NCBI GenBank assembly: GCA_021794335.1
Contig: JAJYQZ010000351.1
Coordinates: forward strand, 1-5,442
Length of the DNA stretch: 5,442 nucleotides
Origin: a bacterium
Lineage (GTDB): Bacteria; SZUA-79; Acidulodesulfobacterales; Acidulodesulfobacteraceae
Direction of reading: 5' to 3'
The notes under the pieces are model-generated. The model did not search any database. It saw only the letters and a program-made list of their open reading frames with translations, and was not told the origin of the DNA. The translations under genes and the position numbers were made by a program. Below, piece by piece: positions 2,958-5,442 of the stretch. Each line of letters begins with the position of its first letter. The stretch's first letter is position 1.

Positions 2958-3671
2958 ATGCAAGTTTCAGAAGATTTTCTGAATGTGGGATTGGTTTTTC
3001 TTTCATCCGATTTTAAGGTTGTCGGCATGAATGAATTTGCAAAGCAGGTTTTGGGTCCTGCCGTGAGGGAATTCGGCGAAAGTGTTTTTAAATATCATCC
3101 CCGCAAAAGTCATCTTAAAATAAAAAGCCTTTTGGAAGAATCCCTGAGTCCTCATCTCAATCCTCCCGCTACCATGGTTATCGATGTATTAAACAAGGTA
3201 TTAATGGTTAATGTTAATGTTTGCGCTATCGATATAAAGGAACTTTCCTCATCAAATCGATTATATGTTATGACATTTCTGGATATAACCGAACAAATTA
3301 AGGCTGAAACAAATCCTCATACCGGCATGGTGGAATTAAAGAAGTTTCCGGTAATCAGCGAAGGTTCAATCCAGTTTTTGGACATTAAATCCGTGTACTT
3401 TATCCAATCGGATGGAAATTATTGCAAAGTTTTCACGGAAAACCGCCGGTATTATCTTCATTCCACCTTAAAAAATATACTTAAACGATATACGGGCCCC
3501 GAATTTTTTCGCGTTCACAGGTGTTTTGTAGTTAATATAAATCTCATAAACAGCATAGAGCAGGATAAGCAAGGGCACAATAAGATTGTCTTTGACAAAA
3601 CGACGGTACCTGCCGTTCCGGTATGCCGCAGGAAGATACGCGAACTTAAAAATTTACTGGATATTGCTTAA
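2958..3671 (+). CDS. rcoM: RcoM-like heme PAS-LytTR carbon monoxide-sensing transcriptional regulator
   Basis: Probable one-component activator in which a heme-binding PAS domain senses CO and a LytTR domain binds DNA. The PAS domain spans about residues 6-118. It is followed by a short linker and a LytTR domain at about 128-237, with the typical FFRVHRCFVVNINLI segment (183-197) and VPVCRRKIRELKNLL at the end. Aligned by eye with remembered Burkholderia xenovorans RcoM-1, YHPRKS matches the segment holding its heme ligand His74 (here His47), and MVIDVLNKVLMVNV matches that holding Met104 (here Met73). No cysteine is seen at the position of its Cys94. The protein is 237 residues, lacking about 27 N-terminal residues of RcoM-1. 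The start at 2958 lies 3 bp after the tpiA stop in the same frame and has no evident Shine-Dalgarno; later starts would cut the PAS domain, so termination-reinitiation coupling is likely. The cooF and cooS genes downstream strongly support the CO role. Heme binding is inferred. The alternative is a PAS-LytTR regulator with another ligand. Confidence 0.85.
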   Translation: MQVSEDFLNVGLVFLSSDFKVVGMNEFAKQVLGPAVREFGESVFKYHPRKSHLKIKSLLEESLSPHLNPPATMVIDVLNKVLMVNVNVCAIDIKELSSSNRLYVMTFLDITEQIKAETNPHTGMVELKKFPVISEGSIQFLDIKSVYFIQSDGNYCKVFTENRRYYLHSTLKNILKRYTGPEFFRVHRCFVVNINLINSIEQDKQGHNKIVFDKTTVPAVPVCRRKIRELKNLLDIA

Positions 3672-3711
3672 TTTCAAGCCGTTTATCAAACCTTTCAAGC
3701 CGTTTATCAAA
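3672..3711 (+). repeat. Perfect 19-bp direct repeat, candidate LytTR (RcoM) operator
   Basis: Two identical copies of TTTCAAGCCGTTTATCAAA lie at 3672-3690 and 3693-3711, separated by CC, giving a 21-bp period, about two turns of the helix. Each copy holds GCCGTTTAT (3678-3686 and 3699-3707). This matches 8 of 9 positions of the LytTR-family consensus [TA][AC][CA]GTTN[AG][TG], and the two boxes are 12 bp apart, the spacing described for LytTR sites. The repeat begins directly after the regulator stop codon and lies upstream of cooF, where an activator site is expected. The role as operator for the adjacent RcoM-like protein is inferred. Confidence 0.75.
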
Positions 3712-3717
3712 AATTTC

Positions 3718-3746
3718 TTTACAGAAGTTAAGAAATAAATTAATCT
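3718..3746 (+). promoter_or_regulatory. Candidate cooFS promoter
   Basis: TTTACA (3718-3723) matches the sigma-70 -35 hexamer TTGACA at five of six positions. A 17-bp spacer leads to TAATCT (3741-3746), a poor -10 element with about three of six matches. The direct repeat ends 6 bp before the -35, a position suited to an activator contacting RNA polymerase, and a weak -10 fits an activator-dependent promoter. The predicted transcript would begin near 3752-3755. The region is AT-rich, so chance matches are easy. Confidence 0.35.
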
Positions 3747-3764
3747 CCTTAAAAAGGAGGTGAT
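3743..3764 (+). promoter_or_regulatory. Strong Shine-Dalgarno of cooF within a possible sequestering hairpin
   Basis: AAGGAGGTGAT (3754-3764) is an almost full-length complement of the 16S rRNA 3' end, five bases before the cooF ATG, and fixes the start at 3770. The preceding ATCTCCTT (3743-3750) can pair with AAGGAGGT (3754-3761): eight pairs, one of them G-U, closed by an AAA loop. Transcripts including 3743-3750 could therefore mask the ribosome site, whereas transcripts starting just downstream could not. The Shine-Dalgarno is certain; the regulatory hairpin is a suggestion, since the three-base loop is tight. Confidence 0.6.
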
Positions 3765-3769
3765 TTATA

Positions 3770-4333
3770 ATGAAAGAGATTTTCATTGATATCGAAAAGT
3801 GCACCGCCTGCAAATCCTGTGAGATTGCCTGCGCAATTCAACATTCCTCGTCCAAAGATCTATTTTCGGCTATTTTTGAAACTCCGGCGCCGATAAAAAG
3901 AGTTCATGTCGAGAAGGCTTTTTCTTTTTCTTATCCCGTTAAGTGTATGCATTGCGCCGATGCCGCATGCATGGCAGCTTGTCCTACAGGAGCTATGCAA
4001 AGAGACCAAGAGTTTGGCAGGGTCGATGTTAACTTAGATAAATGTATGGGATGTTGGATGTGTGCCATGGTTTGTCCTTTTGGCGCAATTACCGCGGATT
4101 ATGCAATGAAGGTGGCCAGAAAGTGCGATTTTTGCCTTGACAGGCTAAAAGACGGTAGAAAGCCTGCGTGCGTTGAAGCATGTCCCACCCATGCTCTTAC
4201 CTTTGGAGAAACGGAAGAACTTTTTAAAACTCAAAGGATATTATCTGCGGAAAGAGTTGCCAGGGCTGTTACAATTAATGAAGAAAGAAAAATAACGCCC
4301 ATGGAAATGTTAAGAAATTTAGGAAATATTTAA
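3770..4333 (+). CDS. cooF: CooF-type four-cluster [4Fe-4S] electron-transfer protein
   Basis: Iron-sulfur protein expected to take electrons from carbon monoxide dehydrogenase and hand them to a redox partner such as a hydrogenase or a pyridine-nucleotide oxidoreductase. The 187-residue product has sixteen cysteines in four groups: 11/14/17/21, 59/62/67/71, 92/95/98/102 and 119/122/134/138. This is the pattern of the CooF/HycB/DmsB family of 4x[4Fe-4S] ferredoxins, and no cluster ligand is missing. There is no signal peptide or membrane segment, so it should be cytoplasmic. Length is close to that of known CooF proteins (about 190). The start is set by the excellent Shine-Dalgarno. cooS follows after 16 bp with no terminator, so the two are almost surely cotranscribed. 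By sequence alone it could be the electron-transfer subunit of another oxidoreductase; adjacency to cooS is what makes CooF the best call. The final electron acceptor is not visible. Confidence 0.88.
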   Translation: MKEIFIDIEKCTACKSCEIACAIQHSSSKDLFSAIFETPAPIKRVHVEKAFSFSYPVKCMHCADAACMAACPTGAMQRDQEFGRVDVNLDKCMGCWMCAMVCPFGAITADYAMKVARKCDFCLDRLKDGRKPACVEACPTHALTFGETEELFKTQRILSAERVARAVTINEERKITPMEMLRNLGNI

Positions 4334-4349: not shown

Positions 4350-5442
4350 ATGCCAATGAAGATATTTGATAAAGTTACGCAATCATTAATAGACAGGGCA
4401 GAGGAGCTTGGTATAGAGACAGGTATCGACAGGTTGGAGGACCAGCAGCCGCAGTGCGGTTTTGGGCAGCTTGGCTCATGCTGCAGAATGTGTTATATGG
4501 GTCCATGCAGGATAGACCCTTTTGGAAATGGCGCTGCAAAGGGCGTGTGCGGGGCAACTGCCGATACGATTGTATGTAGAAATCTTTTAAGGGAGGAGGT
4601 CGGAGGTGCGGCGTCCCATGTGGGACACGCAAGACATGTAGTAATCGCTTTTCAAAAAATGCTGGAAGGGAAGGCCCCGGGCTACAAAATTACCGACAAG
4701 GCCAAATTGTTGGAAGTTGCTTCGGGATTGGGGATTAAAACTAACGGGAAATCGGATATGGATGTGGCAAGGGAAGTAGCTTCTAAGGCGATGGACGATT
4801 TAAGCAGGCAAGATGGGGAACCTATGAACTGGCTTAAACTTAGAGCGCCTAAAAGGGAATTCGAGATGTGGAAAAATAAAGGGATTTTGATTTCTAACGC
4901 CCATAACGAAATTGAGGAGGCGATGCACAGGACATCCATGGGCAACGATGCCGATCCTATAAATTTACTCTTAGCTTGTTTAAAGATGGGTCTTGTGGAC
5001 GGTTATGCGGGACTCCATATGGCGACGGATTTTCATGATATTTTATTTGGGACGCCTCAAATTAGCAAAATTGAGGCGAATATAGGCGTCCTTGAAAAAG
5101 ACAAGGTGAATATCGCAATACACGGACATAATCCCGTGCTTTCTGAAAAGATACTCGAATGGACTAAAAAACTGGAAGAGGAGGCAAAAAAACGGGGGTC
5201 GCTGGGTATAAATGTGGTCGGCGTCTGCTGTACCGGCAACGAACTTACTATGAGACACGGCGTTCCGATGGCTGCCCATAATCTTCAGACGGAACTAGTT
5301 TTAATCACGGGAGCCGTTGATGCTATGGTTGTGGATATGCAGTGTATATGGCCGTCTTTGGCTATGATAGCGGAGTGTTTTCACACAAAGTTCATTACCA
5401 CGGAATCTTTTGTAAAGATACCCGGCGCTATTCATGTGAATT
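4350..5442 (+). CDS. cooS: Anaerobic Ni-Fe carbon monoxide dehydrogenase catalytic subunit, 3'-truncated by window edge
   Basis: CooS oxidises CO with water to CO2, two electrons and two protons at a Ni-Fe-S C-cluster, working as a cytoplasmic homodimer. The frame is open from 4350 to the right edge (364 codons), over half of the usual 630-640. The N-terminal block QCGFGQLGSCCRMCYMGPCR supplies the shared D-cluster cysteines 36 and 44 and B-cluster cysteines 45, 48 and 53, with Cys67 in KGVCGAT completing it. HGHNPVLS gives the C-cluster ligand His260, GVCCTGNE gives Cys294, and DMQCIWPS gives Cys332. Spacings equal those of Carboxydothermus CODH-II (His261, Cys295, Cys333). Other family motifs include MHRTSMGNDADPINLLL and DILFGTP. 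His90, His93 and His96 match three of the four histidines of the proposed proton path; the fourth position is Ile99. The remaining C-cluster cysteines lie beyond the window, so integrity of the whole gene cannot be judged. Placement after cooF, without acetyl-CoA synthase subunits in view, favours a CO-oxidising role. Confidence 0.95.
   Translation, partial: MPMKIFDKVTQSLIDRAEELGIETGIDRLEDQQPQCGFGQLGSCCRMCYMGPCRIDPFGNGAAKGVCGATADTIVCRNLLREEVGGAASHVGHARHVVIAFQKMLEGKAPGYKITDKAKLLEVASGLGIKTNGKSDMDVAREVASKAMDDLSRQDGEPMNWLKLRAPKREFEMWKNKGILISNAHNEIEEAMHRTSMGNDADPINLLLACLKMGLVDGYAGLHMATDFHDILFGTPQISKIEANIGVLEKDKVNIAIHGHNPVLSEKILEWTKKLEEEAKKRGSLGINVVGVCCTGNELTMRHGVPMAAHNLQTELVLITGAVDAMVVDMQCIWPSLAMIAECFHTKFITTESFVKIPGAIHVN

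Follow-up and report, generated by a model that had tools for sequence, protein, structure and literature searches.

The DNA analysed here, a stretch of 5,442 nucleotides called the window below, carries a partial ileS, tpiA, a LytTR regulator gene, a gap, cooF and cooS, in this order. The gap, from the regulator stop (gene end at 3671) to the cooF start (3770), is 98 bp long and holds a tandem repeat, and the question is whether this repeat is the site through which the regulator controls the CO dehydrogenase genes that follow. An earlier note on this DNA had predicted it to be the operator of an RcoM-like branch of regulators. The features concerned are as follows.

2958 to 3671, + strand: RcoM-like single-component regulator, N-terminal PAS-like sensor and C-terminal LytTR (PF04397, E = 1.4e-21)
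3672 to 3677, and again 3693 to 3698, + strand: 5' extension TTTCAA, the same in both window units, unconserved in relatives
3678 to 3690, + strand: predicted operator box 1, GCCGTTTATCAAA, with its LytTR nonamer at 3678-3686
3699 to 3711, + strand: predicted operator box 2, GCCGTTTATCAAA, with its nonamer at 3699-3707, 21 bp after box 1
3718 to 3723, + strand: -35-like hexamer TTTACA, 10 bp after the box 2 nonamer
3741 to 3746, + strand: possible weak -10, TAATCT, uncertain (3/6 matches, 17-bp spacing)
3770 to 4333, + strand: cooF-like ferredoxin with Fer4-type domains, first gene of the predicted target operon
4350 to 5441, + strand: cooS, catalytic subunit of Ni-containing CO dehydrogenase (PF03063, E = 7.9e-100), running off the window

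The repeat itself was as the earlier note had described it. The sequence TTTCAAGCCGTTTATCAAA is present twice between the LytTR gene and cooF, at 3672-3690 and 3693-3711, and the copies are identical over 19 bp with a period of 21 bp. This run is the longest perfect tandem run in the window for periods of 12-30 bp, and when the gap was shuffled 20,000 times with its dinucleotides preserved, no run reached 19 bp (maximum 14). The nonamer consensus of LytTR sites is [TA][AC][CA]GTTN[AG][TG]. Against this consensus, GCCGTTTAT matches 8 of 9 positions in both units with a spacer of 12 bp, inside the 10-13 bp that separate the two 9-bp direct repeats of LytTR-type operators, so the nonamers claimed in the earlier note are also real, and ACCGTTYAT, carried by many relatives, matches all 9. 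An RNA element in the repeat region was considered and rejected, with no Rfam match there and no inverted repeat in 3500-3900.

The regulator gene next to the repeat codes for a protein in which PF04397 spans residues 138-234. LytTR was the sole Pfam domain found, with no match to a receiver, MHYT or PAS domain. The missing PAS match counts against the preferred reading, though a cox-linked LytTR regulator of Paraburkholderia aromaticivorans, used as comparator, is likewise without one in Pfam. The match of the window regulator to the PAS S-box was weak and below the cut-off (E = 0.066). A profile search of solved structures returned LytTR domains only, including those of ComE and AgrA. As judged from residue conservation only, the candidate heme ligands are H47, kept in 20/20 regulators, and M73, kept in 19/20; the L096 regulator is without M73, which counts against the preferred reading. 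Their counterparts in the P. aromaticivorans comparator, which is 29% identical and itself not proven to be an RcoM, are H75 and M105. H75, C95 and M105 of the comparator lie one residue beyond His74, Cys94 and Met104 of RcoM-1, whose heme ligands are His74 and Met104, the latter also named in a reference title. The accessible part of one report states that histidine and methionine hold the heme in reduced RcoM and that the methionine is exchanged for CO (PMC9670170). M105 of the window protein was also tried as a heme ligand and rejected, because L099 and L100 have V at this position and because its partner in the alignment with the P. aromaticivorans protein is another Met than M105. Three of the 82 proteins that matched the regulator bear the JGI name 'CO-responsive transcriptional regulator RcoM'. 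Homology thus supports a predicted role of the window regulator in sensing CO.

Relatives of the regulator were collected at three levels. Of the 82 matching proteins, 33 were aligned with the window regulator as alignment A1. A scan of genome contigs gave 329 loci, and among the best 80, 9 had 47-66% identity over most of the protein, while the other 71, with 24-41% identity mostly in the LytTR part, were dropped. Whole-genome searches with A1 (1331 genomes, some repeated) yielded 19 orthologue genomes, L081-L089 and L092-L101; L090 was removed as a weak second match and L091 as a fragment of the L089 gene. The orthologous regulators in these 19 other genomes are 41-66% identical to that of the window, and 9 of the 19 genomes were assigned to Nitrospirae/Thermodesulfovibrionales, Nitrospinota, Thermodesulfobacteriota, Deltaproteobacteria and an unclassed proteobacterium.

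When a pair of RCCGTTYATCAAA boxes was searched for from 40 bp before to 330 bp after the regulator gene end, the best pair had a period of 21 bp in the window and in 19/19 relatives, periods of 20 and 22 being also allowed. In the relatives the pair starts between 22 bp before and 187 bp after the regulator gene end. As the operator prediction of the earlier note implied, the pair is not absent from relatives that have the regulator, and it lies upstream of cooF or cooS in 16/19 of them. With a leave-one-out matrix, the operator pair outranked every other pair of its locus (3.5-5.4 kb, both strands) in 20/20 loci, always at a period of 21 bp though 19-23 were allowed. The members of L081/L101, L086/L097/L098 and L094/L095 were also kept apart in this analysis; L084 and L089, whose operators are near-identical, were not separated. 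The margins were wide except in L088, where a score of 9.8 against 3.8 for the second-best pair counts against the operator reading. The training positions of the matrix came from the RCCGTTYATCAAA scan, the consensus of which was drawn partly from the same loci. The family consensus provided a test independent of that scan, and over the 20 loci it gave a mean pair score of 16.6/18 at period 21 and of 14.0-14.75 at the remaining periods between 15 and 27. In 200 sets of shuffles at period 21, the set means averaged 13.99 with a standard deviation of 0.16, and the highest was 14.4. Among the 17 loci with regulators below 80% identity, the best box columns carry 1.7-2.0 bits and the spacer columns 0.2-0.8 bits, with CC, T and A invariant in box 1 and CC, T and TC in box 2. 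The three TAA-like columns before box 1 (0.8-1.2 bits) are part of the regulator stop codon region in several loci. Nothing pointed to a third box at a further 21 bp upstream, where columns in these 17 loci reach at most 0.84 bits. In L089, the match to the regulator passes from one frame to another towards the C terminus (residues 1-205 and 201-233), so that this copy is frameshifted or misassembled; its operator lies 47 bp after the stop of the first frame.

The conserved part of each unit across the relatives is about 13 bp (RCCGTTYATCAAA), and the perfect 19-bp identity in the window exceeds it. Accordingly, the earlier view of the 19-mer as the operator unit holds for the core pair of about 13 bp, which relatives keep, and not for the 6-bp TTTCAA extension, which they do not. 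The same note had read the exact identity as selection or a recent duplication. Part of the identity may well stem from a recent duplication or from homogenisation, TTTCAA being common only to the window's two copies, yet a local tandem duplication devoid of a regulatory role would not give the 13-bp core pair at the same period in 19/19 relatives down to 41% regulator identity. Duplication alone is therefore insufficient, and we regard it as a very improbable explanation of the repeat. TTTCAA itself may be due to recent homogenisation or to chance.

The same extension raises the further idea that the true operator is of the RcoM type, TTCNNGCA, because the window has TTCAAGCC twice at a period of 21 bp. 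RcoM-1 uses TTCNNGCA repeats, according to the part of PMC11347149 that is accessible, and TTCAAGC fits TTCNNGC fully in both window units. In 0/19 relatives is the full TTCNNGC found at the same place in either unit (3-6 of 7 positions, counting the two N and the final C of the box), whereas RCCGTTYATCAAA is kept in both. The TTCNNGC fit in the window looks coincidental or lineage-specific, and an operator of this type is scarcely credible here.

The position of the boxes relative to a -35-like element was constrained as well. Over the 20 loci, a -35-like hexamer starts 10 bp after the second nonamer with a mean match to TTGACA of 4.25/6 (3-5 per locus), and the match is at most 2.2 at other distances of 0-29 bp. 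The TT of the -35 is invariant in 17 loci, and the next position is G in 14/17. Similarly, the accessible part of PMC6193735 states that most repeats of LRS-type LytTR operons are separated by 12 bp and that they strongly tend to lie 10 bp upstream of the -35. The fixed phasing of the boxes to the -35 would argue for activation. A LytTR operator could also serve a repressor whose action CO lifts. CoxC, a LytTR protein that responds to CO, is such a repressor and acts from an operator overlapping the -35 (PMC11347149, available in part), and here box 2 does abut the -35 with its 3' end, as does the conserved AAATTTC. The nonamer, however, ends 10 bp upstream of it, as in self-activating LRS regulators, and there is no overlap. 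The window's own -10 is weak, which counts against the preferred reading, and a generic promoter scan of the window reported no promoter. A poor -10 at the expected spacing recurs in several promoters (3/6 in the window, L084 and L100), which speaks against repression, as activator-dependent promoters often have a poor -10. We therefore consider the repressor reading unlikely. In addition, a hairpin, ATCTCCTTAAAAAGGAGGT, at 3743-3761 pairs with the cooF Shine-Dalgarno sequence and was flagged as terminator-like; it could add translational control.

The evidence thus favours the prediction of the earlier note, which gains support from the pair in 19/19 relatives, its top rank in 20/20 loci and the layout with the -35. 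It is highly probable that the paired boxes are the operator of an adjacent RcoM-like CO sensor that activates the coo operon. This reading draws on the top-ranked pair, the score peak at period 21, the information in the box columns and the 10-bp peak of the -35, as well as on cooF or cooS being the next gene in 16/19 relatives, the retention of H47 and M73, and the Geobacter rcoM gene that precedes cooS. From the paired boxes, their 21-bp period, their distance to the -35, their conservation and the linkage of regulator and coo genes, we infer binding of the regulator to the boxes, CO as the signal and activation as the result. Two LytTR domains, most simply those of one dimer, would bind the two RCCGTTYATCAAA boxes, which are separated by two helical turns and so share one face of the DNA, and box 2 would end just upstream of the -35 of a cooF-cooS promoter. 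CO on the regulator heme might then trigger DNA binding or contact with RNA polymerase, and the CO dehydrogenase operon would be switched on.

The genes that follow the operator agree with this target in most relatives. By tblastn with the proteins of the window, cooF and then cooS follow in 12/19, cooS alone in 4/19 and neither in 3/19. The window cooF is 59-77% identical to its counterpart in the 12 relatives, and the window cooS, a truncated protein, matched TIGR01702 with E = 8.1e-118 and 394.2 bits (cut-off 478). An oxidoreductase-like gene was seen by eye after cooF-cooS in L001, L002, L004, L005 and L009, and Pyr_redox_2 was confirmed in the L004 protein. Three more distant orthologues have the pair in front of non-coo genes, which counts against the preferred reading: the operator precedes a rubrerythrin-like gene in L099/L181, a 209-aa frame without Pfam match and then a PKD/NosD-type protein in L096/L180, and a rhodanese-domain protein in L100/L182.

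In the region 2175-2958 of the window, 3 bp separate the tpiA stop from the regulator start; the regulator follows ileS and tpiA and may be expressed with these housekeeping genes. The window IleS is 96% identical to that of G408, 94% to G410 and 86% to G002, and its matches suggest that the window lineage belongs to the small G002 group, of which G408 and G410 are the closest genomes; the nearest named genus, Candidatus Acididesulfobacter, is at 70%. The regulator, cooF and cooS were found in 0/28 of the fetched flanks of ileS loci of the G002 group. Genome searches found no regulator anywhere in G408 or G410, the G410 assembly being 0.9 Mb with a flank that ends inside tpiA, and in G002 the regulator and ileS are on different contigs. 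Because related ileS loci are without the regulator and coo genes, and the G002 regulator is on another contig, the regulator, operator and coo genes appear to behave like a portable cassette.

Additional targets of the regulator were sought in 38 genomes. Of these, 19 are relatives that possess the regulator; the other 19, which served as controls, gave no match to it at E 1e-40, a cut-off at which they could contain a more diverged regulator. The pair pattern was found at the regulator in 16/19 regulator genomes, the pairs of G007, G009 and G259 exceeding 3 mismatches. Extra matches numbered 8 in the 19 regulator genomes and 12 in the 19 control genomes, and the reversed pattern gave 3 matches over all 38. 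Of 13 extra matches examined among the 20, 12 fall within open frames of 100 aa or more on either strand, some of which are maybe chance frames. The repeat is thus not scattered at random, a point on which the earlier note had made its reading depend, and no further target beyond the regulator locus rose above background in the 38 genomes. In one genome (G402, contig C2, 224487-224581), a 21-bp tandem repeat with CCGTTTATC gave four pattern matches within a 203-aa open frame and looks like a coding repeat, not an operator.

Among 19 distant LytTR loci (L133-L151), the test covered the 9 in which a coo gene comes next downstream, and 10 were left out, 7 of the response-regulator type and 3 without a coo gene downstream. 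A similar pair was clear in only 4/9: at most 1/500 shuffles matched the pair score in L135, L138, L141 and L146, and 10/500 did so in L139. The pair was not significant in L134, L140, L147 and L149 (30-248/500 shuffles). As the pair is not significant in these four distant loci, we do not extend the motif to every coo-linked regulator. About three TTTATCC-like repeats in 20-bp steps were seen by eye before cooS in L139 and L140. The LytTR genes of L142-L145, L148, L150 and L151 are of the response-regulator type, and an apparent acetyl-CoA synthetase-type gene, also seen by eye, follows several of them.

These results offer a specific, testable site for coo-linked RcoM-like regulators, and the box pair might serve as a signature for CO-inducible CO dehydrogenase operons in uncultured anaerobes. 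Such a compact gas-responsive switch could also be used as a CO biosensor part. With some reservation, we lean towards a broader view, that the coo-linked RcoM-like branch has its own DNA code of two canonical RCCGTTYATCAAA boxes at 21 bp, 10 bp from the -35, and not three TTCNNGCA repeats; it would form a CO-inducible regulator-operator-coo cassette across several phyla, a module re-used for non-CO genes in a few lineages.

Regulators of the RcoM type linked to coo genes are already known from Geobacter (PMC4703632) and Rubrivivax (PMC4257681), both sources being available in part. In Geobacter sulfurreducens, the accessible text describes the rcoM gene GSU2099 as immediately preceding cooS, which is accompanied by cooF and an FAD-NAD oxidoreductase (PMC4703632), a layout similar to that found here. 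Among the matches listed in the open-licence PMC literature, the accessible text describes no operator for coo-linked RcoM-like regulators, and none appears in the available parts of PMC6557876, PMC13077300, PMC7306483, PMC4349456, PMC13056359 and PMC4703632.

The closest likeness in DNA is to the direct-repeat operators of the LytTR family, such as those of the LRS regulators HdrR and BrsR in Streptococcus mutans and of YpdB in E. coli; most LRS operons also have two direct repeats at 12-bp spacing. According to the accessible parts of the reports, the BrsR operator, ACCACTTAT-12 bp-ACCGCTTAT, resembles ACCGTTYAT-12 bp-ACCGTTYAT (PMC6193735; PMC4847170), and the distance to the -35, biased to 10 bp in LRS operons, is 4-11 bp in S. 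mutans itself (PMC6193735) and 10 bp here. Unlike in these systems, the box here is longer (RCCGTTYATCAAA), the protein is a PAS-like/LytTR one-component regulator, and the predicted target is a CO dehydrogenase operon and not the regulator's own promoter. CoxC of Afipia carboxidovorans is likewise a CO-responsive LytTR protein, with direct repeats at 18-21 bp intervals, but it differs in its membrane MHYT sensor, to which the window protein gave no Pfam match, its three TTNNNGCN repeats and its action as a repressor (PMC11347149, accessible in part). RcoM-1 of Paraburkholderia xenovorans shares with the window system a LytTR domain, the candidate His/Met ligands, repeats about two helical turns apart and a link to CO oxidation. 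Its site, as given in the available part of PMC11347149, consists of three TTCNNGCA repeats at 12-13 bp spacing, whereas two repeats with a different core are found here, and its target is cox in place of the anaerobic coo. A TTCNNGCA triplet proposed upstream of the P. aromaticivorans cox genes, in 21-bp steps (8, 7 and 7 of 8 positions, N counted), was set aside as weak because five further 7-of-8 matches occur on the two strands of the same 525 bp. The term 'RcoM-like branch' is therefore apt for the regulator, and 'RcoM operator' is not apt for its site, since motif and copy number differ from the published RcoM-1 operator. The aerobic cox and the anaerobic coo lineages may thus have CO sensors that are alike in their heme ligands and yet recognise different DNA. 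Judged by its sequence, the window element is a predicted classical LytTR operator placed on an RcoM-like sensor, and not an RcoM-1 operator.
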